Source: Falsiroseomonas bella
GTDB taxonomy: Bacteria > Pseudomonadota > Alphaproteobacteria > Acetobacterales > Acetobacteraceae
Assembly (NCBI RefSeq): GCF_003173615.1
Contig: NZ_QGNA01000001.1
Coordinates: 1,550,001-1,614,000, forward strand
Reading direction: 5' to 3'
DNA length: 64,000 bases
Within the stretch, counting starts at the first letter, position 1; the number at the start of each line of letters is the position of its first letter. This document shows positions 6,064 through 17,017 of the stretch, in pieces. The position numbers were made by a program, and so were the translations under genes. The notes under the pieces are model-generated. The model did no database searches. It was not told the origin of the DNA and worked only from the letters and a program-made list of their open reading frames with translations.

Positions 6064-6501
6064 ATGACGACGCTCGCGACCTATCTCGGCCTCTTCGCCG
6101 CCGCCTTTGGCGCCGCCTCCATCCTGCCGATGCAGTCGGAGCCGCTGCTGGTGGCGCTGCTGATCCTGGGCGACCAGTCGCCCTGGGCGCTGGTGGCGGT
6201 GGCGAGCCTCGGCAACACGCTCGGCTCCTGCCTGAACTGGCTGCTCGGCCGCTGGGTGGAGCATTACCGCGACCGGCGCTGGTTCCCGGTGCCGCGCGAC
6301 AAGCTGGCACGGGCGGAAGGCTGGTACCATCGCTGGGGGCGCTGGTCGCTGCTCATGAGCTGGGCGCCGATCATCGGCGATCCGCTGACGGTGATCGCCG
6401 GCGTGCTGCGCGAGCCCTTCTGGAGCTTTCTGGTGCTTGTCGCGATCGCCAAGACCGGCCGCTACGTGACGCTTGCGCTGATCACCCTCGGCTTCACCTG
6501 A
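6064..6501 (+). CDS. YqaA/DedA-like small inner-membrane protein
   Basis: Predicted 145-residue integral membrane protein with about four hydrophobic segments. It resembles E. coli YqaA (VTT/DedA superfamily) in the pattern SILPMQSEPLLVALL, then SLGNTLGSCLNWLLGRW, then WGRWSLLMSWAPIIGDPLTVIAG. DedA-family proteins are linked to membrane lipid handling and proton-motive force. It lies between pufC and crtI in the same direction, 13 bases before crtI, so it is probably co-transcribed with crtI. I know of no defined role for YqaA in photosynthesis; the location may be accidental or reflect membrane remodelling. Confidence 0.75.
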   Translation: MTTLATYLGLFAAAFGAASILPMQSEPLLVALLILGDQSPWALVAVASLGNTLGSCLNWLLGRWVEHYRDRRWFPVPRDKLARAEGWYHRWGRWSLLMSWAPIIGDPLTVIAGVLREPFWSFLVLVAIAKTGRYVTLALITLGFT

Positions 6502-6514
6502 ACGGAGGCCCGCC

Positions 6515-8023
6515 ATGCTCGACGCGATGACCGATCCACGGCCGCATGCGGTGGTCATCGGCTCCGGCTTCGGCGGCCTGGCCGCGGCCGTGCGGCTCGG
6601 CGCGCGCGGCTGGCGCGTGACGGTGCTCGAGAAGCTCGATGCGCCGGGCGGCCGCGCCTATGTGTTCCGCCAGGACGGCTTCAGCTTCGACGCCGGCCCG
6701 ACCATCATCACGGCGCCGTACCTGCTTGAGGAGCTCTGGGAGCTCTGCGGCCGGAGGATGAGCGACGACGTCACGCTGCGTGCGATGGACCCGTTCTACC
6801 GCATCCGCTTCGACGACGGCACGGTCATGTCCTGCTCCGCCGATCCCGAGGCGACACGGGCCGAGGTCGCGCGCATCGCACCCGAGGACCTCGCCGGCTT
6901 CGAACGCTTCATGCGCGACTCGGAGGCGATCTACCGCGTCGCCTTCGGCCAGCTTGCGGACAAGCCGTTCCACAGCTTCGGCGCGCTGCTGCGCGCGGCC
7001 CCGGACATGATCCGGCTGCAGGGCTACCGCACCGTCTTCGGCAAGGTCGGGGACTATTTCCGCAATCCTAAACTTCGCATCGCCTTCAGCTTCCACCCGC
7101 TGCTGATCGGCGGGAACCCGATGACCACCACCGCCTATTACTGCCTGATCGCGCATCTGGAGCGGATGCACGGCGTGCACTACGCGATGGGCGGCATGGG
7201 CGCGCTGGTGAACGGCATTGCCGGGCTGATCGACGGCCTCGGCGGCCGCATCCGCTGCAACGCGGAGGTGGCGGAGATCCTGGCCGAGAACGGCCGTGCC
7301 ACCGGCGTGCGTCTTGCCGATGGCGAGCGCATCGCTGCCGACATCGTCGTCTCCAACGCTGATGCGGGCTGGACCTATTCGAAGCTGCTGGCCAAACACC
7401 CGCGCCGCCGCTGGACCGACCGAAAGGTGGCGCGCGCGCGCTACTCCATGAGCCTCTTTGTCTGGTACTTCGGCACCAACCGCAAATTCGACGACGTCTA
7501 CCACCACACCATGGTGCTCGGCCCACGCTATGAAGGCCTGCTGCAGGACATCTTTGCCCGCAAGCACTTGGCCGACGACTTCTCGCTGTATCTGCACCGG
7601 CCGACCATGACGGATCCTTCCTTGGCGCCACCCGGTTGCGACGCCTTCTACGTGCTGTCCCCGGTGCCGCATCTCGGCAGCGGCGTGGATTGGGGCACGC
7701 GCGCCGAACCCTATCGCGCCGCGATCCAGAAGCGGTTGGAGGACACGGTCATGCCCGGCCTGGGCGAGTCCATCGTCACTTCCCGCATGCTGACGCCGCA
7801 GGATTTTCGGGATCGCCTGCTGTCGGTGAACGGCGCCGCCTTCTCGCTGGAGCCGCAGCTCTTCCAGAGCGCCTGGTTCCGCCCGCACAACCGCAGCGAG
7901 GAGCTGGAGGGTCTCTACCTGGTCGGCGCCGGCACGCATCCCGGCGCGGGCGTGCCCGGCGTGATCAGCTCCGCCCGCATTCTCGACCAGCTGGTGCCGG
8001 AAGCCGTCGCCTTCCGGCGCTGA
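6515..8023 (+). CDS. crtI: Phytoene desaturase CrtI
   Basis: FAD-dependent desaturase that introduces several double bonds into phytoene, producing neurosporene or lycopene for the spheroidene or spirilloxanthin pathways. The 502-residue product has the dinucleotide-binding motif VIGSGFGGLAAAVRL at the N-terminus, the GGRAYVF and DAGPTIIT segments, and the carotenoid-desaturase C-terminal signature LYLVGAGTHPGAGVPGVI. GGAGG lies about seven bases before the ATG at 6515; an in-frame ATG at 6527 is an alternative. It converges with crtD1, whose stop is three bases away. crtB and crtE, needed to supply phytoene, are not in this window. Confidence 0.93.
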   Translation: MLDAMTDPRPHAVVIGSGFGGLAAAVRLGARGWRVTVLEKLDAPGGRAYVFRQDGFSFDAGPTIITAPYLLEELWELCGRRMSDDVTLRAMDPFYRIRFDDGTVMSCSADPEATRAEVARIAPEDLAGFERFMRDSEAIYRVAFGQLADKPFHSFGALLRAAPDMIRLQGYRTVFGKVGDYFRNPKLRIAFSFHPLLIGGNPMTTTAYYCLIAHLERMHGVHYAMGGMGALVNGIAGLIDGLGGRIRCNAEVAEILAENGRATGVRLADGERIAADIVVSNADAGWTYSKLLAKHPRRRWTDRKVARARYSMSLFVWYFGTNRKFDDVYHHTMVLGPRYEGLLQDIFARKHLADDFSLYLHRPTMTDPSLAPPGCDAFYVLSPVPHLGSGVDWGTRAEPYRAAIQKRLEDTVMPGLGESIVTSRMLTPQDFRDRLLSVNGAAFSLEPQLFQSAWFRPHNRSEELEGLYLVGAGTHPGAGVPGVISSARILDQLVPEAVAFRR

Positions 8024-8026
8024 GCC

Positions 8027-9538
8027 TCAGGCCGGCGCCGGCAAGCGCACCGCGCGGCGCGCGCCGCCGCCGAGATCCTCCAGCACCCGTGCAGCGGCCA
8101 GCCGGCCCGACATCGCCGCCATCGGGATGCCCGCGCCAGGATGCACCGACCCGCCGGCGCAGTAGAGGCCGGGCAGCCGCGTGACGCCGCCAGGCCGCGC
8201 GAAGGTGCCCGTCGCGCCATGGCCGGCGCGGCCATACAGCGCGCCCCCTGAAGCGGGGAACAGCGCATCGAAGCCGGTCGGCGTGCTCGCCGTCGCGTTG
8301 TCCAGCGCCACCTCCAGCCCGCAGGCGCGCAGCAGGTCCAGCGTGCGCCGCGCAAGTGCCGGAAGCTCCGGCACGAAGTCGCGGGTGTCGCCATCCGGCG
8401 GCGCATTGATCAGCAGCAGCAGCCGCTCGGCCATGCCGGGCTGCACCTCGCCCACGCCGCGATCCTGCGCGCAGACATAGACCGTGGGCGCCGCGCAGAT
8501 GTCGCGCCGGCGGAAGATCGCGCGAAACTCCTCGGCGTAGTCCTCCGCGAAGAAGACGTTGTGGTGCAGCAGCGAGAAGCCGCGCGTCGGCGTGCTCACG
8601 CACCAGGTCACGGCGGAAAGCGAGCGCGCGGCATCCGGCGTATCCGGCGCGGCGCCGCGGGCGCCTCCGCCCAGCATCCCGCGCGCCAGCGCCGCGACGT
8701 CGCCGTTGAACAGCACGGCATCGGCGGCGATCTCCTCGCCACCGGCGAGCCGCACGCCGCAGGCGCGGCCATCACGAACCAGGATCTCGTCCACATGCGC
8801 GCCGAAGCGGAAGCGCGCACCCTGTCGCTCGGCCAGCGCCTGCAGCGCCTGCGCCACCCGCACCATGCCGCCGCGCACCAGCCACACGCCGTCCTGCTCG
8901 ACATGCGCGATGAGCATCAGCGTCGCTGGCGCCAGGAAGGGCGAGCAGCCGGTATAGGTGGCATAGCGCCCGAACAACTGTCGCAGCCGCGCGTCCCGGA
9001 AATGGTCGCCGAGCGCCGACCACATGCTCCGCCAGGGCGCAGTGCGCCACAGCGCGTCCAGCCGCCCCCAGCCGACGCGCTGCACCAGCGCCAGCGGGGA
9101 TGGGCGCTCCGCCGCGATGAAGCTGCCGACCAGGGTGCGGTGGATTTCGGCGCTGCGCGCGACGAAGTCGCGATAGCCGCGCGCATCCTCCGCCCCGGCG
9201 AAGTCGCCGATCGCCTCCGCCGAGCGGTCCACATCCGCAAAGAGATCAAGCCGCCCGCCCTGCCGCCAGGCATGCCGCGCCAGTGTCTCGGCCGGCACCA
9301 GCGCAAGCGAATCCTCCAGCCGCTCGCCCGCTTCGGCGAAGAGCCCCTCGAAGATCCAGCGCATCGTGAAGACCGTCGGGCCGGCATCCACGCCCTGCAG
9401 CTGTCGCATCTTGCCGCCGGGTGTGGCGGCGCGCTCCAGCACGGTCACCTCGGCGCCGCGCCGGGCAAGATCCACCGCGGCGGAAAGGCCGCCCATGCCG
9501 GCGCCGATCACCACCACGCGGTCGCGGCGGCGCCCCAT
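8027..9538 (-). CDS. crtD: CrtD-type carotenoid 3,4-desaturase (copy 1)
   Basis: FAD-dependent desaturase of the CrtI/CrtD family, expected to introduce the 3,4 double bond of 1-hydroxy- or methoxy-carotenoids on the way to spheroidene or spirilloxanthin. The product is 503 residues starting MGRRRDRVVVIGAGMGGL, with the CrtD-style GGKMRQL after the FAD motif and GLYCAGGSVHPGAGIPMAAMSGRLAA at the C-terminus. The frame is open upstream, but the ATG at 9538 follows the membrane gene by 14 bases and gives the FAD-binding start. A second, divergent crtD-like gene lies at 13938-15428; which of the two is the true CrtD cannot be settled from sequence alone. Confidence 0.85.
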   Translation of the reverse strand: MGRRRDRVVVIGAGMGGLSAAVDLARRGAEVTVLERAATPGGKMRQLQGVDAGPTVFTMRWIFEGLFAEAGERLEDSLALVPAETLARHAWRQGGRLDLFADVDRSAEAIGDFAGAEDARGYRDFVARSAEIHRTLVGSFIAAERPSPLALVQRVGWGRLDALWRTAPWRSMWSALGDHFRDARLRQLFGRYATYTGCSPFLAPATLMLIAHVEQDGVWLVRGGMVRVAQALQALAERQGARFRFGAHVDEILVRDGRACGVRLAGGEEIAADAVLFNGDVAALARGMLGGGARGAAPDTPDAARSLSAVTWCVSTPTRGFSLLHHNVFFAEDYAEEFRAIFRRRDICAAPTVYVCAQDRGVGEVQPGMAERLLLLINAPPDGDTRDFVPELPALARRTLDLLRACGLEVALDNATASTPTGFDALFPASGGALYGRAGHGATGTFARPGGVTRLPGLYCAGGSVHPGAGIPMAAMSGRLAAARVLEDLGGGARRAVRLPAPA

Positions 9539-9552
9539 GCCGCCATCCACGG

Positions 9553-10299
9553 TCAGGCAGCCTGCGCCACTTCGCCGCGGCGGCGCTGCCGCGCCGCGCG
9601 CTCGATCGCCAGGCGGTGCCAGATGATGATCGTGAGACCGACCGTCAGCGGGATCGCCCACATCACCGGATGCAGCGCGAGCTCCGGGAAGATCCGCACG
9701 GAGCCGAAGGCCATGAAGGCCGTGTAGACGCTGATGCCGGCACCGACGAGCGCCTTCACATGCTCCTTCAGCCAGTCCTCCCGCGTCGGACGGTCCTTGG
9801 CAAGGAACCAGAGGTTCGTCGCCCCGGTTGCTAGGCCCACGACGGCCAGCCCGATCAGCAGCTTCTCGCCCATCATCCAACCCTGGAAGGCGCAGTTGAG
9901 CGAGGTCGCGATGACGATCCACTGCCAGGCATACATCGCCCGCGTGCGGTTCAGCGCCTGCTGGCTCCGATTCCGCACCAGCATCCAGCCATACCAGGTC
10001 AGGTTGATGGTCAGCGTCGCCGCGCACACCATCAAATGGCCGAAGAAGCCGCGGATGAAGACCTCGTCGAAGCGCCCGACGAGTTGCGGATGCGTGCCCA
10101 TCGGGTCGTAGAGCGACAGCAGGCTCATCGCCAGCGCGAAGCTGCCGGTGCAGAGCAGGGCGATGCTGAACACCTTGCCCCAGCGGCGGTGGTTCACGCC
10201 GCCTTTCCGTCCGATCACCGGAACCCAGAAGGCGATCGCGCCGGTCGCGCCCGTGATGATGTGGGCGATGACCAGCGTGTGGAAGACGAGCAGCTCCAT
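9553..10299 (-). CDS. DUF2306-like multi-pass membrane protein upstream of crtD
   Basis: Predicted 248-residue integral membrane protein with about seven or eight hydrophobic segments. The N-terminal pattern HIITGATGAIAFWVPVIG followed by KGGVNHRRWGKVFS resembles the DUF2306 family, whose function is not established. It is the first gene of a two-gene minus-strand unit with crtD1 (14-base gap) and shares a divergent promoter region with the P450 gene. The context suggests a membrane accessory role in carotenoid or photosystem biogenesis, but that is inference. The ATG at 10299 is preceded by GAGGCG. Confidence 0.7.
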   Translation of the reverse strand: MELLVFHTLVIAHIITGATGAIAFWVPVIGRKGGVNHRRWGKVFSIALLCTGSFALAMSLLSLYDPMGTHPQLVGRFDEVFIRGFFGHLMVCAATLTINLTWYGWMLVRNRSQQALNRTRAMYAWQWIVIATSLNCAFQGWMMGEKLLIGLAVVGLATGATNLWFLAKDRPTREDWLKEHVKALVGAGISVYTAFMAFGSVRIFPELALHPVMWAIPLTVGLTIIIWHRLAIERAARQRRRGEVAQAA

Positions 10300-10322: not shown

Positions 10323-10340
10323 TGACAATGCCACTTGACA
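10323..10340. promoter_or_regulatory. Near-consensus PpsR/CrtJ box in the divergent P450 promoter
   Basis: TGACAATGCCACTTGACA is an imperfect inverted repeat matching the PpsR/CrtJ operator TGT-N12-ACA in all but one position (TGA instead of TGT on the left arm), with the frequent TTGACA right arm. It lies 70 bases upstream of the P450 start and 23 bases upstream of the DUF2306-like gene, so it could repress both directions. The right arm also resembles a -35 box. Regulation is inferred from the motif and from ppsR being encoded 5 kb away. Confidence 0.5.
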
Positions 10341-10410: not shown

Positions 10411-11832
10411 ATGACCGACGCGCCGACGATCGAGGACGCACCCGCGCGCCGGGCCGACGCGGCGGGCTGGGCGCCTTTCATCCCGCCCTACACGCCGCCC
10501 TGGCCGGCGCTGCCCTCGCTGGTGCGCGCGATGCTGCGCGGCGATGGCGACCTGCTCTCGCTGCTGCCGCGCGAGGCCTATCACATGAAGATCGGCCCGC
10601 TCGGCTATTCGCGGCGCTCGATCGTGGTGGTGAACGAGCCTTCCATGGTGCGCCATGTGTTGGCCGACCCGGAGGGGATCTTCCCGAAATCCGACCTGAT
10701 GGTGCACGCGCTGGAGCCTCTGATCGGCGACAGTATTTTTGTTTCGTCGGGTGCCACTTGGCGCAGGCAGCGCAAGGTGATCGATCCGGCGCTTTCGATG
10801 ATGCGGGTGAACCGCGCCTTCCCCGCGATGGAGGCGGGCTGTGCGGATGCGGAATCGGAATACGACCGCCACGCGGAACACGGCACGCCCTTCAGCCTCG
10901 ACCTCGCGATGAGCCACCTGACGGCCGACATCATTTGCCGCACCGTCTTCACCACCACGCTGCACAGCAAGACCGCGCATGACGTCTTCGACGCCTTCAC
11001 GGAGTTCGAGCGCCGCGTGGCGCAGGTGGAGATCCGCCGGCTGATCTGGGACAAGGCCTGGACCAGGGCGCCGCAGAAGGCGCCGGTTCTGGAAGCCTGC
11101 GCCACCATCCGCGCGCGCATCGGCGAATTGCTGGACACGCATCTGGATGCCGGCGCCAGCTTCGACGACATCGCGCAGCAGGTGATCGAGGCGCGCGACG
11201 ACGTCGGCGCCAAGGCCTTCACGAGGGAGGAGCTGATCGACCAGCTCGGTGTGCTGTTCCTGGCCGGGCACGAGACCTCGGCCAGCGCGCTCACCTGGGT
11301 TTTCGCCATCCTCGCGACGCAGCCCGCGCTGGTGGCGCGGCTGCGTGCCGAGGTGGAGGAGGTGACCGGCGGCGGCCCGATCGAGTTCCACCACATCAAG
11401 CGCCTGACGCTGACGCGCAACATCTTCCGCGAGACGCTGCGCCTCTACCCGCCCATCACCTTCCTGCCGCGCGTGGCGAACGAGGCGACGGCCCTGAACG
11501 GCTACCGGCTCAAGAAGGGCGCGCTGGTGATGGTCGCGCCCTGGGTGCTGCACCGACACCGCCTCTACTGGAAGGACCCGAACCGCTTCGACCCCGACCG
11601 CTTCCTGCCGGAGCGGGAGCAGGAAATCACCTCCGGCGCCTACATTCCCTTCGGCATAGGGCCCCGCATCTGCGCCGGCGCCGCCTTCGCCACCATCGAA
11701 GCGACGCTGCTGATCGCGCGCCTGTTCCGCCGCTTCGACTGGACGCTGGACGCGCCGGAGCGCATCCGCCCCGCTGCTCGCCTGACGACGCGCCCCGTGG
11801 AGCAGGTCATGTGCCGCGTCAGGCCGGCATGA
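10411..11832 (+). CDS. Cytochrome P450 within the carotenoid cluster
   Basis: Heme-thiolate monooxygenase of 473 residues. Visible P450 landmarks are the I-helix AGHETSASAL (about residue 284), the K-helix ETLR (about 340) and the heme loop FGIGPRICAG with the proximal Cys421. There is no fused reductase domain and no ferredoxin gene adjacent. Its stop overlaps the start of the ATP-grasp gene (ATGA), so the two are translationally coupled. Being set between crtD1 and crtC, its substrate is probably a carotenoid; a bacterial precedent for P450 action on carotenoids is CYP175A1 of Thermus, a beta-carotene hydroxylase. The actual substrate is unknown. Confidence 0.9.
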   Translation: MTDAPTIEDAPARRADAAGWAPFIPPYTPPWPALPSLVRAMLRGDGDLLSLLPREAYHMKIGPLGYSRRSIVVVNEPSMVRHVLADPEGIFPKSDLMVHALEPLIGDSIFVSSGATWRRQRKVIDPALSMMRVNRAFPAMEAGCADAESEYDRHAEHGTPFSLDLAMSHLTADIICRTVFTTTLHSKTAHDVFDAFTEFERRVAQVEIRRLIWDKAWTRAPQKAPVLEACATIRARIGELLDTHLDAGASFDDIAQQVIEARDDVGAKAFTREELIDQLGVLFLAGHETSASALTWVFAILATQPALVARLRAEVEEVTGGGPIEFHHIKRLTLTRNIFRETLRLYPPITFLPRVANEATALNGYRLKKGALVMVAPWVLHRHRLYWKDPNRFDPDRFLPEREQEITSGAYIPFGIGPRICAGAAFATIEATLLIARLFRRFDWTLDAPERIRPAARLTTRPVEQVMCRVRPA

Positions 11833-13028
11833 CCGGCACCGTCGTCGTCACCCTCGGACGTCTGCCGAAAGGCCTCGACATCTGTCGCAGCTTCGCGCTG
11901 GCCGGCTGGCGCGTGGTGGTGGCGGAGCCGCACGCGCGTCATCTCTGCGGCGCTTCCAACAGCGTCACCCGCAGGGTCCGCCTGCCCGCGCCCGCCGAGG
12001 GCAAGCGCGCCTATCTCCAGCGGCTGGCGGAGATCACACGTGCCCACGGCGCGAACCTCGTCGTGCCGGTCTCGGAGGAGGCGCTGCATGTCTCCTTCCT
12101 GCCGCGATTGCTGCCGGACGTGCCGGTGCTCGCCATGCCGCCCGGCACGATGCTCGCGCTGCACCACAAGGGCCGCTTCACCGAGGTTGCGCGGGAGGCC
12201 GGCGTCGCGGTGCCGGAGACGCATCCCCTCGGCAGCGAGGGCGCCGCGGCGCTCGCGCGCGCCGGCCGCGTCGTGGTGAAGCCCGTCCATTCCGCCGCCG
12301 GCCGTGGCGTGCGCGTGCTGGCCGAAGGCGAGGCACTGCCCGCGCCCGAGCCCAGCGCGCCCGCCGTGGTGCAGCGCTTCCTGCCCGGCGCGGAGTTCAG
12401 CTCCTGCACGCTGGCGCGGCAGGGCCGCGTCCTCGGCACCGTGATCTATCGTGGCGTGCAGTTCGCCGGCTCCGTCGCCTGCGCCTTCGAGCGTGTGGAG
12501 CACGCGGCGGCCGAAGCATGGATCGCCCGACTGGTCGAAAAACTCGGATGGACCGGCTTCATCTCCTTCGACATGCGCGAGGACGCGGAGGGGCGCATCC
12601 ACGGCATCGAATGCAACCCGCGCACCACGAGCGGCCTGCATTTCTTCGAGACCGAGGACATCGCCGCCGCCATCCTCGGCGCGCGCGACACGCTGCGCCA
12701 CCGCAAGGCGACGCGCCTGCAGCAATTCTGGTCCTGCCTGACCGAGACGCAGCTGGCGCTGTTCCGCCGCGATCCCGATTTCCGCCGCCACCTGCGCAAC
12801 CTGTTCACCACGCGCGACGTGACCTGGGCGGCGCGCGACATGGCGCCGTTGCTGACCATGCCCTGGACCGCCTGGCCGATCATGCGCGACGCGGCGCGCG
12901 CGCGCGTGCCCTTCGGGGAGGTGGCGACCCTCGATGTCGGCTGGTTCGAGGGCGAGGTGCGCGCGCCGACTACCGCAGCGGCCGCGGCACCCGGAAGGGC
13001 AGCATCGCGTACATCAGCGGCGACCTGA
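11829..13028 (+). CDS. ATP-grasp ligase coupled to the P450
   Basis: Predicted ATP-dependent carboxylate-amine/thiol ligase of 399 residues. It has an N-terminal preATP-grasp fold (VVVTLGRLPKGLDICRSF), then the ATP-binding lysine region VVVKPVHSAAGRGVRVL, VVQRFLPGAEFSS, and the metal-binding acidic motif HGIECNPRTTSG. ATP-grasp enzymes activate a carboxylate as acyl-phosphate and join it to a nucleophile. The start at 11829 overlaps the P450 stop. Its 3' end overlaps the 3' end of crtC on the other strand by 59 bases. Together with the P450 it suggests formation and conjugation of an acid; substrate unknown. Confidence 0.85.
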   Translation: MTGTVVVTLGRLPKGLDICRSFALAGWRVVVAEPHARHLCGASNSVTRRVRLPAPAEGKRAYLQRLAEITRAHGANLVVPVSEEALHVSFLPRLLPDVPVLAMPPGTMLALHHKGRFTEVAREAGVAVPETHPLGSEGAAALARAGRVVVKPVHSAAGRGVRVLAEGEALPAPEPSAPAVVQRFLPGAEFSSCTLARQGRVLGTVIYRGVQFAGSVACAFERVEHAAAEAWIARLVEKLGWTGFISFDMREDAEGRIHGIECNPRTTSGLHFFETEDIAAAILGARDTLRHRKATRLQQFWSCLTETQLALFRRDPDFRRHLRNLFTTRDVTWAARDMAPLLTMPWTAWPIMRDAARARVPFGEVATLDVGWFEGEVRAPTTAAAAAPGRAASRTSAAT

Positions 13029-13941
13029 AGCGATCCAGCGACAGGCTTTCATGCACGCCGGGCGCCGCCTGGCCGAGCAGCGTCGTGTGGATTTCCGAAC
13101 GCGAGTAGAAGGGCGCATCGGTCAGCGTGCGGGTCACGCGCACCGGGCCTTCCGCCCGCGTCGGTCGGCGCAGGCGCCACAGCGTGCGCGGCAGCTCCGC
13201 CTCCGGCGGCGGCGCGAAATCGGTCAGCGCGCCGTCATCCGTCGCGCGCAGCGCCAGCGACTGCGAAGTGCCGTCGCGGCGATGCGTGTTGTAGAGGATA
13301 GCCGTCGCATCGGGCAGCATCGCGCGGCACCAGTCCCACTCCCGGAAATCCTCCTCGAGCGGCGCGGCGCCGGCATTGGTGTCGAAATACGCCGCGCCGG
13401 ACCAACGCAGCGCCGGGCTTTCGAGCGCGACCTCCACGCGGGATCGCGGCGCGATCGGCTGCCACAGATGCCGCCCCTGCGAATCCAGCGTGAGCGCGCG
13501 CGTCGAGAGGGCGCGCGGATGCAGCCGCAGTACGCCGCGCAGGCGCGAGGGGAAGGGCGCCGTCACCTCCTCGATGCGCACGGTCAGCGTCGTGCCGTCC
13601 CATTCCATCGCGCTCGGCCCGATCGTCAGCGAATTCGCATCCCGCCGCAGCGCGTGGCGGCGCCGGTCGGTCATGGCCCATCGCGAGGGCGTGCCGTAGA
13701 GCACGACATTCATGCAGCAATGGTCGTGCGGATCGCCGCCGGTGCCGCCACCGGCGCGGTGCGCCAGCGCATACCAGGGCGAGAACACGGTGCCGATGAA
13801 GGCGATGATGGTGATGCCGTGCTTCCCGTCATCCGAGATCGCGTCCAGGTACCACCAGCGATAGCCGCGCCGCGCCACCGGCACGTCGAAGGCCCAGCTG
13901 CGCTGTGTTGGCGCCGCCTGCGCCTCCTGCACCATGCTCAT
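12970..13941 (-). CDS. crtC: Carotenoid 1,2-hydratase CrtC (hydroxyneurosporene synthase)
   Basis: Adds water across the terminal 1,2 double bond of acyclic carotenoids to give 1-hydroxy derivatives, the substrate for CrtD-type desaturation. The 323-residue product has the CrtC core with RGYRWWYLDAISDDGKHG, followed by FIGTVFSPWYALA and later FREWDWCRAMLPDATAILYN. Its ATG overlaps the stop of crtD2 (ATGA), so hydration and desaturation enzymes are coupled. Its C-terminus overlaps the convergent ATP-grasp gene. Length fits the compact alphaproteobacterial CrtC family. Confidence 0.9.
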   Translation of the reverse strand: MSMVQEAQAAPTQRSWAFDVPVARRGYRWWYLDAISDDGKHGITIIAFIGTVFSPWYALAHRAGGGTGGDPHDHCCMNVVLYGTPSRWAMTDRRRHALRRDANSLTIGPSAMEWDGTTLTVRIEEVTAPFPSRLRGVLRLHPRALSTRALTLDSQGRHLWQPIAPRSRVEVALESPALRWSGAAYFDTNAGAAPLEEDFREWDWCRAMLPDATAILYNTHRRDGTSQSLALRATDDGALTDFAPPPEAELPRTLWRLRRPTRAEGPVRVTRTLTDAPFYSRSEIHTTLLGQAAPGVHESLSLDRFRSPLMYAMLPFRVPRPLR

Positions 13942-15428
13942 CCGCGATCCTCGATCACCCGCGCCGCCGCCAGCCTGCCCGACATGGCGGCCATCGCCAC
14001 CCCCGCGCCCGGATGCGCGCTGCCGCCCGCGAGGTAGAGCCCCGGCAGCTTCGTCCGCGCGCCCGGCCGGCTGAAGGCCGATTGCCAGCCATGCACCGCC
14101 GGCCCGTACAGCGCGCCGCCCGCACCGGGGAACAGCCGGTCGAAATCCGCCGGCGTGGTCACGCGCTCCGCCTCCGGCCGGCGATGGATGACGAAGCCGG
14201 CGCGGCGCAGGCGCTCCAAGGCCGCCTCGCCGCAGCGCGCGATCGCCTCCTCCGGCAGGGGGCGCAGATCCGCCCGTGCCGGCGCGTTGACCATCGCCAG
14301 CAGCCGCTCCGGCCCCGGCGGCGGCGCGGCGCCCGCCATCCGGTCATGCGCCCAGAGCGTCACCGTGGGCGTCGTCGGCAGCCGCGCGCGGTAGCCGATC
14401 TCGGCATATTCCGCCGTCGGGTCGTCGGCATGCACCACGGTCTGCGCCGCGGGGGCCGCGCCCTCGGTCGCTGCGTGCATCGCCCAGGTCACGGCCGAGA
14501 AGGATCGCCGCTCGGGCGGCAGGCGCTCCACCGCCGCCGCCGCGCCGCGCCCGAACAGCCCCGCGCCGAGCCCTGCCGCGTCCGCGTTCAGCACCACCGC
14601 GCCGGCCGCGATCGTCTCGCCATCCGCAAGCCGCACGCCGGATGCCCGCCCGCCGGCGACGAGGATCTCGCGCACCTCGGCGCCGTAGCGGAAGCCGGCG
14701 CCGCGCGCCCGCGCCACATGCTCCAGCGCCTCCGCCAGCCGCGCCATCCCGCCTTCCACCGCCCAGAGGCCCTGAAGCTCGACATGCGCGACCAGCATCA
14801 GCGTCGCCGGCGCCTGCAGCGGGGAGGAGCCGACATAGGTCGCGACGCGCGCGAAGACCTGGCGCAGCCGCTTGTCGGCAAAGTGCTCGCCCAGCGCATC
14901 CCACAGCGAGGCGAAGGGCGAGGCGCCGAGCAGTCCCCGCAGCCCGGCTTGCGCCGCCAGCGCGACCGCCCCCGGCCGCTGCGCCCGCAGGAAGGGCCGT
15001 TCCAGCGCATCGTGGATGCGCCGCGCGCGCTCCCGGAAGGCCAGGTAGCCGCGCGATGCGGCGGCGCTGGCGAAGCTGCCGATCGCCTCGGCGGCGGCCG
15101 ATTCGTCCACTGGCAGGTCGAGCCGCTTCCCATCCGTCCAGGCGTGGCGGCCGAGCAGCGGTTCCGGCCGCAGGGTCAGCCGGCTCTCCAGGCTGTCGCC
15201 GGCCGCCGCGAAGATCTCCTCGAACACCGGGCGGAGCGTCAGCAGGCCAGGGCCGGCACCGACCGGCACGCCGTCCACCGCGACCTCGCGGATCTTGCCG
15301 CCCGCCGCCGCCGCGCGCTCCAGCACCAGCACCGGACGGCCCTGGGCGGCGAGCAGCGCCGCCGCGACCAGGCCGCCCATCCCGGCGCCGATCACGACCA
15401 CGGTCTGGGGGGAAGCCGGCATGACCAC
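13938..15428 (-). CDS. crtD: CrtD-type carotenoid desaturase/oxidoreductase (copy 2)
   Basis: Second member of the CrtI/CrtD FAD-dependent family in this cluster, 496 residues. It has VVVIGAGMGGLVAAALLAAQ at the N-terminus, GGKIREVAVDG, and GLYLAGGSAHPGAGVAMAAMSGRLAA at the C-terminus, closely parallel to the gene at 8027-9538 but clearly diverged. It is first in a two-gene operon with crtC, the classical crtD-crtC pairing, and its promoter region carries a perfect PpsR box. This context makes it the better candidate for the true 3,4-desaturase, leaving copy 1 for another step. An in-frame ATG at 15422 is an alternative start. Confidence 0.85.
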   Translation of the reverse strand: MVMPASPQTVVVIGAGMGGLVAAALLAAQGRPVLVLERAAAAGGKIREVAVDGVPVGAGPGLLTLRPVFEEIFAAAGDSLESRLTLRPEPLLGRHAWTDGKRLDLPVDESAAAEAIGSFASAAASRGYLAFRERARRIHDALERPFLRAQRPGAVALAAQAGLRGLLGASPFASLWDALGEHFADKRLRQVFARVATYVGSSPLQAPATLMLVAHVELQGLWAVEGGMARLAEALEHVARARGAGFRYGAEVREILVAGGRASGVRLADGETIAAGAVVLNADAAGLGAGLFGRGAAAAVERLPPERRSFSAVTWAMHAATEGAAPAAQTVVHADDPTAEYAEIGYRARLPTTPTVTLWAHDRMAGAAPPPGPERLLAMVNAPARADLRPLPEEAIARCGEAALERLRRAGFVIHRRPEAERVTTPADFDRLFPGAGGALYGPAVHGWQSAFSRPGARTKLPGLYLAGGSAHPGAGVAMAAMSGRLAAARVIEDRG

Positions 15429-15667: not shown

Positions 15668-17017
15668 ATGAACCGCGTCGTCGTCACGCAGCCTGACGTC
15701 ACCCTGGTCCTCGATTGGGACGGGGTCATCCGCGACGCCTCGGTTTCCGCGGCGCTGGCGAAGGACGGGCTGGACGGCTGGGTCGGCCGGCACTGGACCG
15801 ATACGGTCGGCGAGCCTGCCGGCGACCAGGTCCGCCGCATGGTGGAGGATGCGCGCTCCCGCGGCGTCTCCGCCTTCCTGCAGGTGACGCAGCGCTTCCC
15901 CTCCGGCATCGAGGTGCCGATCGAGTACACCACCGTGCGGCTCGGCGCCCAGGCCGGGCTGATGGCGGTCGGCAAGAGCCTCCAGGCCGTTCAGGAACTG
16001 CAGTCCCGCCTGGTCGCGGCGCAGCAGGCGCGCGAGCAGGACTACTGGAAGCTGCGCGAGATCGAGATGCGCTCGCGCCTGCTGTTCGACGCCTCGTCCG
16101 AGGCGGTGCTGATCGTCGCCGCCGGCGACCTGCGGGTGATCGAGGCGAATCCGGCCGCCATCCGGGAGCTCGGCATGGCGCCCGGCTGGGACTTCGCGCA
16201 GGAGGTCGCGCCGCGCGACCGCAACGCCTTCCGCGAGCTGCTGGCGCGCGCGCGCGAGCATGGCCGGACGCCCGGCGTGCTGATGCATATCGGCGCCGCC
16301 GCCACGCCCTGGCTGCTGCGTGTCTCCATGATGGCGCGGGAGCCGGAGCCGGTGCTGCTGATCCAGCTCGCCCCGGCGATGCCAGAGCCGGGCCGCGGCC
16401 TGCCCCGCGCCCTGCCGCCCCGCACCGACGAACTGCTCGAAGGCCTGCCGGACGGCTTCGTCGTCGCGGACGCCGAGGGCCGCGTGCGGCGTGCCAACCG
16501 CGCCTTCCTCGAACTGGTGCAATGCGCGACCCAGACCGCCGTGCTGGGCGAGCCGTTGGCCCGTTGGCTCGCCACGCCCGGCCGCGACGCCGCGGTGCTG
16601 ATGCGCACGCTCAACGAGCATGGCGAGGTCCGGCTGTTCAAGACCACGGTCACCGGCCTGCTCGGCACCGAGTCGGAGGTCGAGATCTCCGCCACCGCCA
16701 GCACCGCCGGCGGCCCGCCCGCGATCGGCCTGCTGGTGCGCGACATCGGCCGGCGGCCGCAGGACGACCTGGGCGACCTGCACGCCGCGATCTCGCAGGT
16801 GCTGCGCGACATGGGGCGCATGCCGCTGCCCGTGCTGGTGCGCAACACCGCCGCCTTGGTCGAGCGCGCGCGGATCGACCAGGCGCTGCGCCGCGCCGGT
16901 GGCAACCGCACCGCCGCGGCCGATGCGCTCGGCCTCAGCCGCCAGAGCCTCTACGCCAAGCTCGAGCGCTACGGCATGCACGACCCGCGCGATTCCGACA
17001 TGGACGCCGCCGGATGA
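15668..17017 (+). CDS. ppsR: Photosynthesis gene repressor PpsR/CrtJ
   Basis: Transcriptional repressor of bacteriochlorophyll, carotenoid and antenna genes. The 449-residue product has an N-terminal PAS-like region, a linker helix (QELQSRLVAAQQARE), two further PAS domains (about 135-235 and 255-360) and a C-terminal Fis-type helix-turn-helix (about 405-440: GGNRTAAADALGLSRQSLYAKL). Unlike Rhodobacter PpsR/CrtJ, whose redox control involves a cysteine in the helix-turn-helix, only one cysteine is present (Cys286) and none in the DNA-binding domain. It is the first gene of a coupled operon with bphP and bphO, so light rather than redox may be the main input. Confidence 0.93.
   Translation: MNRVVVTQPDVTLVLDWDGVIRDASVSAALAKDGLDGWVGRHWTDTVGEPAGDQVRRMVEDARSRGVSAFLQVTQRFPSGIEVPIEYTTVRLGAQAGLMAVGKSLQAVQELQSRLVAAQQAREQDYWKLREIEMRSRLLFDASSEAVLIVAAGDLRVIEANPAAIRELGMAPGWDFAQEVAPRDRNAFRELLARAREHGRTPGVLMHIGAAATPWLLRVSMMAREPEPVLLIQLAPAMPEPGRGLPRALPPRTDELLEGLPDGFVVADAEGRVRRANRAFLELVQCATQTAVLGEPLARWLATPGRDAAVLMRTLNEHGEVRLFKTTVTGLLGTESEVEISATASTAGGPPAIGLLVRDIGRRPQDDLGDLHAAISQVLRDMGRMPLPVLVRNTAALVERARIDQALRRAGGNRTAAADALGLSRQSLYAKLERYGMHDPRDSDMDAAG

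Follow-up and report, generated by a model that had tools for sequence, protein, structure and literature searches.

A conserved cytochrome P450, membrane protein and ATP-grasp ligase trio among the carotenoid genes of aerobic anoxygenic phototrophs

What do a cytochrome P450 and an ATP-grasp ligase contribute to a photosynthesis gene cluster, where they stand among genes of carotenoid synthesis? The question is raised by a 64,000-nucleotide stretch of Falsiroseomonas bella DNA (contig NZ_QGNA01000001.1, positions 1,550,001 to 1,614,000; here called the window) from a genome of 5.9 Mb, whose closest named relatives are Roseomonas sp. AR75 (P450 93% identical) and MO-31 (90%). An original prediction, made from the sequence alone, described the two genes as a pair between crtD1 and crtC that might oxidize a carotenoid and conjugate it. 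The placement in a photosynthesis cluster stands, with crtI, two crtD genes, crtC, pufM, pufC and ppsR as neighbors. A third gene had been overlooked, mem249, which encodes a membrane protein and lies between crtD1 and the P450 gene. The trio of P450, mem249 and ligase is very probably a carotenoid-tailoring module of aerobic anoxygenic phototrophs. The observed basis of this assignment is the conserved co-occurrence of the three genes, their placement among crt genes and their association with the reaction-center gene pufM.

Conservation of the trio with carotenoid and reaction-center genes

P450s more than 70% identical to that of the window were found in 16 of 99 relatives, and the ligase gene adjoins in every one; G092, whose ligase match is weak (29% identity), would be a 17th and was left out of this count. 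mem249 lies within 1.5 kb of the P450 gene in all 16 genomes carrying the pair. Within the genus, the pair is present in 14 of 15 genomes, and the exception (G009) also lacks pufM. Across the family, the ligase profile matches 32 of 297 genomes (expect value, E, up to 1e-60), pufM is present in 88 and both occur in 31, a 31/1/57/208 contingency with a Fisher p of 1.3e-17 that is uncorrected for the kinship of genomes related by descent. Counted per genus, the ligase is found in 9 of 91 and pufM in 36 of 91. The lone ligase genome without pufM (G311) is a fragmented assembly with 6% contamination, in which a contig end truncates the P450 gene and mem249 is on a separate contig. Ligase and pufM share one contig in 19 of the 31 genomes with both, within 20 kb of each other in 18 of these, and lie on different contigs in the other 12.

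Profiles of P450 and mem249 were scanned in 80 genomes, comprising all 57 pufM-positive, ligase-negative genomes and 23 of the 32 ligase-positive ones. The two genes occur in the same 26 genomes, 23 with the ligase and three without it (G149, G155, G259). The 23 had been chosen for having the ligase, and the telling part of the scan is the set of 57 ligase-free genomes, among which the same three have both genes and 54 have neither.

Named genomes with the trio belong to Roseomonas, Falsiroseomonas, Dankookia and Paracraurococcus (including P. ruber, L053), and the trio also occurs in Beijerinckiaceae, Hyphomicrobiales and gammaproteobacterial metagenome-assembled genomes (MAGs). In Hyphomicrobiales and gammaproteobacterial MAGs (L058, L059), it shares one stretch with crtI, crtB, crtC, crtD, crtE, a crtF-like gene and bchC-X-Y-Z. 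A second alphaproteobacterial order has the P450 in 21 of 249 genomes. pufM is present in 20 of these 21, compared with 1 of 20 P450-negative genomes (those listed, not a random draw). The trio was present in all 16 loci read in this order, the ligase being cut by the contig end in L114; the other five P450 loci (G762, G776, G795, G875, G955) were left unread. In the only P450 genome of the order without pufM (G846), the P450 match ends at position 357 of the 458-position profile, short of the heme loop (L126:9798-10964), so the module may be decaying there.

Outside these groups, matches are sparse. Seven of 332 genomes of a class-wide sample match, of which three (two read, 37% identical) form another group with unrelated neighborhoods. 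In a 398-genome sample of the phylum, a close ligase occurs only in G000 and in G626, whose order may be Hyphomicrobiales or another. Six more genomes carry distant ligases, and no crt genes were recognized in the five of their neighborhoods read. Eight plasmid records were found, none above 37% identity. The trio is thus found among crt genes and in phototrophs, with pufM in 31 of 32 ligase genomes and 20 of 21 second-order P450 genomes; the one locus that departs from this placement (L118) is weighed below. Conservation with crt genes in relatives, the check that the original prediction had named beforehand, is strong and extends beyond Acetobacteraceae. The conservation across the family, a second order and MAGs means that the trio is not accidental.

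These counts should be read with the sampling in mind. Several loci are the same place under two identifiers (for example, L051 is G010 and L048 is G007). Neighbor labels are best BLAST matches to a panel of genes from the window, later extended with L056, L058 and L075, with crtA outside the panel. Examples of CrtA, CrtY, CrtB, CrtC, AcsF and BchE were checked by profile, with CrtB, CrtC and one of two CrtA scoring under the curated cut-off.

In a tree of 46 chosen P450 rows, those from crt clusters form one clade of 39 rows with 98/98 support, apart from the family paralogues and the 37% group; the bootstrap was still unsettled, and the branches of L020 and L137 were flagged as long. All but one of the 39 rows stand beside crt or bch genes. 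The ratio of nonsynonymous to synonymous substitution rates (dN/dS) between the window and L048 is 0.10 for the P450, 0.21 for the ligase and 0.15 for mem249, which indicates purifying selection on all three.

Some members of the P450 clade do without the ligase. G149, G155 and G259 have the order crtD-crtC-P450, with crtC and the P450 gene on one strand; in G155 these two genes have predicted ends that share 4 bases. No ligase was detected in these three genomes at E up to 0.001, apart from one marginal 48-residue match in G259. In G1042, P450 and mem249 adjoin bchI and crtI, and the 20 kb read contains no ligase. CrtA comes directly before the P450 in G1015 and G1023 (L136:8898-9653 and L137:8697-9479; 295 and 308 bits, cut-off 300), and neither mem249 nor a ligase lies within the 20 kb read. 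Because P450s occur among crt genes without the ligase, the P450 seems to be the core step, with a product useful by itself, and the ligase an optional later add-on.

The proteins and their locus

The P450 is complete, as the original prediction had stated. It carries the heme loop FGIGPRICAG with the thiolate Cys421 (pattern FxxGxRxCxG), the ExxR motif (E341-R344) and the I-helix motif AGHET (pattern AGx[DE][TS]), which place it in the cytochrome P450 superfamily. C421, E341, R344 and A285-T289 are invariant in an alignment of 20 of 24 trio rows, from which 14 paralogues were excluded; here and in the alignments below, the rows were limited to those with ATG starts or picked by choice. The best solved match of the P450 profile is the plant carotenoid hydroxylase CYP97A3 (LUT5; E 1e-64, 170 bits).

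The ligase gene was likewise confirmed as complete and coupled to the P450 gene. The mechanically called open reading frame begins with GTG at 11811, but an ATG at 11829 shares bases with the P450 stop codon (ATGA). In 21 of the 28 loci with both genes on one strand, the two could overlap by 1 or 4 bases. The ligase adjoins the P450 gene in all 39 trio loci read, with strands varying. Its structural model has a predicted local distance difference test (pLDDT) score of 86, and the nearest folds are PurK, PylC and L-amino acid ligases (Foldseek E about 1e-17 for PurK as well as for an L-amino acid ligase). K151, D248, E261, N263 and R265 are invariant in 17 ligase sequences (17 of 21 rows aligned; six rows whose stretch ran over a stop had been dropped during collection, as had duplicate, short and open-ended rows). 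These residues are presumably the ATP-binding lysine and the magnesium-binding acidic, asparagine and arginine residues of the family. With its fold and these residues, the protein belongs to the ATP-grasp superfamily; it appears to retain what catalysis would require, and the modeled fold and invariant positions fit carboxylate-amine ligases. It scores 225 bits against NCBIfam PRK06849 (NF005315), below the curated cut-off of 406, and so is not a member of that family. Weak NCBIfam matches of a few ligase members include RimK- and MfnD-type amino acid ligases. Distant PRK06849-type relatives without recognized crt genes nearby were seen in L069-L073. FabH-like, OleD-like, lactonase-like, F390-synthetase-like and Rieske genes surround the one in L070, and L071 and L073 have an apparently similar layout.

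The model of mem249 (pLDDT 87) has seven long predicted helices. It gave no Foldseek match to solved structures at E up to 0.001 and no sequence match to them at E up to 5. Pfam DUF2306 scores 16 bits on it, under the gathering cut-off of 31.6; among the 20 of 24 rows aligned, 16 match this domain weakly at E up to 5, the best at 6.5e-5.

mem249 and the P450 gene diverge from a shared promoter region that holds a direct repeat, TGACA-N8-TGACA, which also occurs upstream of crtE in the same genome. The repeat has 25 exact matches in 829,198 bp from 42 loci, counted without a shuffle control; these loci share ancestry and had been collected because they hold the genes in question. Fourteen lie in the mem249/P450 promoter, nine upstream of crtE/crtC, one upstream of bchC and one elsewhere. 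The repeat looks like an operator common to mem249/P450, crtE/crtC and bchC, and its sharing with crtE counts in favor of the carotenoid module. Sites with a 13-bp period were seen at L080:15193 and L058:17086, and in three copies each at L059:13191-13221, L102:303-333, L122:6516-6546 and L123:5665-5695. The PpsR-type site TGT-N12-ACA occurs twice in the window against 1.9 expected, neither time in the mem249/P450 promoter. Among 48 such promoters, many from close relatives, six have an exact site, whereas 300 mononucleotide shuffles gave 0.65 on average and never more than 3, and regulation of this promoter by PpsR is possible.

The photosynthesis cluster of the window contains bchZ, the puf genes (pufM, pufC), crtI, crtD1, the trio, crtC, crtD2 and ppsR (Table 1). 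Within 20 kb upstream lie bchI, bchD, crtB, bchE, crtE, a crtF-like methyltransferase gene, acsF and bchC/X; the crtF label derives from Pfam O-methyltransferase domains and position, and the crtE label from prenyl synthase profiles. crtD1 lies directly behind mem249 on the same strand, separated from its stop codon by 2 bp, and the second crtD stands beside crtC. The stretch read in the Paracraurococcus loci shows only one crtD, which adjoins crtC. Two further genes recur in such clusters. A 145-amino acid VTT-domain (DedA-like) membrane protein directly precedes crtI (window 6064-6501) and recurs at crtI in L048, L052, L075, L077 and L085, among others. A DUF3422 protein (Pfam 507 bits; for example, L056:6485-7771) recurs beside crtD, crtI or bchO in several clusters.

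Table 1. Features of the window around the trio (positions counted from the first letter of the window)
Feature	Position	Strand	Evidence and remarks
crtI, phytoene desaturase	6515..8023	+	TIGR02734 630 bits, cut-off 238
crtD1, 1-hydroxycarotenoid 3,4-desaturase	8027..9550	-	NCBIfam CrtD 646 bits, cut-off 580
mem249, 248-amino acid membrane protein	9553..10299	-	divergent from P450, 2 bp ahead of crtD1
TGACA-N8-TGACA direct repeat	10323..10340	+	in divergent mem249/P450 promoter
cytochrome P450, 473 amino acids	10411..11832	+	Pfam p450 E 4.6e-72
ATP-grasp ligase, 399 amino acids	11829..13028	+	Pfam ATP-grasp_3 33.9 bits, cut-off 23.2
crtC, carotenoid 1,2-hydratase	12970..13941	-	NCBIfam CrtC 305 bits, under cut-off 400; tail-to-tail overlap with ligase
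crtD2, second 1-hydroxycarotenoid 3,4-desaturase	13938..15428	-	NCBIfam CrtD 587 bits, cut-off 580
ppsR, photosynthesis repressor	15668..17017	+	TIGR02040 417 bits, cut-off 275

Proposed function and rival explanations

A carotenoid substrate, as the original prediction proposed, is well supported because the pair is conserved with crt genes beyond Acetobacteraceae. The order crtD-crtC-P450 is found in three genomes and crtA-P450 in two, and the trio lies among crtI, crtD, crtC or crtB in most trio loci read. It is likely that the P450 acts on an acyclic carotenoid, which would be a member of the spirilloxanthin series produced by CrtI, CrtC and CrtD. P450s as a family oxygenate C-H bonds and are able to oxidize a methyl group as far as an acid. 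For ATP-grasp ligases of the PurK/PylC/L-amino acid ligase fold, the established reaction is activation of a carboxylate followed by its coupling to a nucleophile. The most likely oxidation would carry a methyl group through to a carboxylate, which the ligase would activate as an acyl phosphate and join to an amine such as an amino acid or amino alcohol; the product would be a polar conjugate. Such a sequence of methyl oxidation and amine ligation fits the enzyme families by analogy. mem249 is placed in the P450 step because it accompanies the P450 where the ligase is absent, and it may serve as a membrane dock, electron-transfer partner or substrate-delivery protein. Taken as a whole, with P450 oxidation, amide formation by the ligase and mem249 in the P450 step, this is the best explanation at hand, with about an even chance of being right. 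The specific route through a carotenoid acid to an amide falls somewhat short of that. It is a tentative suggestion that the module makes natural nitrogen-bearing carotenoids, in which an acyclic acid from the P450 is coupled to an amine by the ATP-grasp enzyme and the conjugates tune or protect the light-harvesting membrane.

In two loci from one family of the second order (L115:6596-7861, L125:11943-13133), the lycopene beta-cyclase CrtY adjoins the trio (466 and 455 bits, cut-off 215). The substrate there may be monocyclic, with a ring at one end, because CrtY stands beside the trio.

Several observations weigh against this account of the module. No crt gene appears in the 20 kb read around the trio of L118, whose contig carries pufM at a distance of about 45 kb. 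P450 and ligase genes lie on opposite strands in 11 of the 39 trio loci read, which also means that the trio is kept even where the operon is broken up. Of 38 trio loci, 24 have no exact copy of the repeat in the mem249/P450 promoter. The correlation of P450 distances with those of the ligase (0.89), mem249 (0.87) and crtC (0.87), in pairs that are not independent, agrees with the module. Yet these values are within the 0.67-0.92 range of all six genes compared, so they point to co-inheritance with the cluster and not to a special pairing. Two control paralogue P450s give CYP97A3 as their second match (150 and 137 bits); the match is therefore not specific, and CYP97 kinship was given little weight as evidence of a carotenoid substrate. 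The oxidation level is read solely from the presence of the ligase, and the P450 product need not be a carboxylate, since three genomes carry P450 and mem249 without the ligase and G1042 has none in the 20 kb read.

The ligase-free loci bear on two rival explanations. The P450 might only hydroxylate the carotenoid, while the ligase activates an amino acid or small acid and esterifies the carotenoid hydroxyl. Such a reaction would suit a ligase that is optional and whose substrate, an alcohol, is stable by itself; CrtC leaves a tertiary hydroxyl, the nearest ligase folds and the few weak RimK/MfnD-type matches include amino acid ligases, and VanA-type ATP-grasp ligases form an ester bond. However, most characterized ATP-grasp ligases of this fold use amines, and neither acceptor nor donor can be read from the sequence, which leaves esterification unlikely. 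Alternatively, the functional pigment could be the P450 product itself, a carotenoid aldehyde or acid comparable to the cross-conjugated rhodopinal type, with the ligase acting on another cell component. The existence of ligase-free P450 members and the opposite strands in some loci would agree with this, and the rhodopinal and glycosylation genes of purple bacteria are still unknown according to the available part of a 2023 review (PMC10604819). The constant adjacency of ligase and P450 in the trio loci speaks against it, as does the family count, in which 31 of 88 pufM-positive genomes have the ligase and only three have P450 and mem249 without it. An unconjugated pigment is accordingly considered rather improbable.

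The target of the trio could also be no carotenoid at all but bacteriochlorophyll or another component of the photosynthetic membrane, either a quinone or a lipid, given that some copies stand beside bchI/bchD/bchO (L121, L124, L126, L135). The recurrent direct neighbors are crtI, crtD, crtC, crtB and crtA, including the crtD-crtC-P450 order, and a non-carotenoid target is very unlikely. That unrelated genes share the cluster of one strain by chance is next to inconceivable and is contradicted by the spread of the trio, which two or more alphaproteobacterial orders and a gammaproteobacterial MAG have conserved in rearranged surroundings. The carotenoid module thus stands as the preferred reading: the trio probably decorates carotenoids in a way not yet described, possibly yielding nitrogen-bearing products.

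Relation to known pigments and pathways

The module provides a genetic handle on the polar pigments of aerobic phototrophs. These bacteria make carotenoids in large excess, including polar ones that are not photosystem-bound (PMC12654162, available part). If the ligase makes amides, the products would be carotenoids with nitrogen, compared with none in nature in a 2012 compilation, which in its available part reports no hetero-carotenoids detected in nature and omits groups linked through oxygen (PMC6268381). If the proposal is true, this would be the first P450 assigned to a purple-bacterial carotenoid pathway, as far as the searched literature shows. The original prediction knew of no described pathway with this pair, and no account of such a P450/ATP-grasp module was found in the full-text literature searched, which leaves most subscription journals outside. 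In the parts available, PMC3338782 names P450 only in a figure legend, the term is absent from PMC3176799, and PMC9456165 and PMC11888242 are unrelated.

Paracraurococcus ruber, which carries the trio, has its light-harvesting complex 1 (LH1) at 856 nm (PMC12654162, available part). This unusually blue-shifted LH1 in a trio carrier is one coincidence, and a suggestive one. The 1998 description of the species is reported to mention a "carotenoic acid".

Among known systems, the CYP97 plant carotenoid hydroxylases (LUT5, CYP97A3) are the best, though not a specific, solved match of the P450, and their plant substrates are cyclic carotenes. PRK06849-type ATP-grasp proteins of other gene clusters are similar across most of the ligase. 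They are 30-39% identical over about 280-290 residues, with no recognized crt genes in the five neighborhoods read of six. The known terminal-methyl oxidases of C30 carotenoid acid pathways are CrtI-type flavoproteins and not P450s. The spirilloxanthin pathway (CrtI, CrtC, CrtD, CrtF) is represented in the genome by crtI, crtC, crtD, crtB, crtE and a crtF-like gene, with crtI, crtD and crtC flanking the trio; we know of no ATP-grasp or mem249-like step in it. The available part of the 2023 review of this pathway mentions P450 twice, once generally and once to say that CrtA is none (PMC10604819). The spheroidene monooxygenase CrtA and the ketolase CruO oxidize acyclic carotenoid ends, as is proposed for the P450, and CrtA directly precedes the P450 in two genomes; CrtA differs in not being a P450 enzyme. 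Roseococcus thiosulfatophilus makes a C30 carotenedioate and its diglucosyl ester (PMC12654162, whose available part does not give the genes). These pigments differ in their C30 skeleton and sugar ester, and resemble the proposed products in being polar carotenoid acids of an aerobic phototroph from the same wider family.

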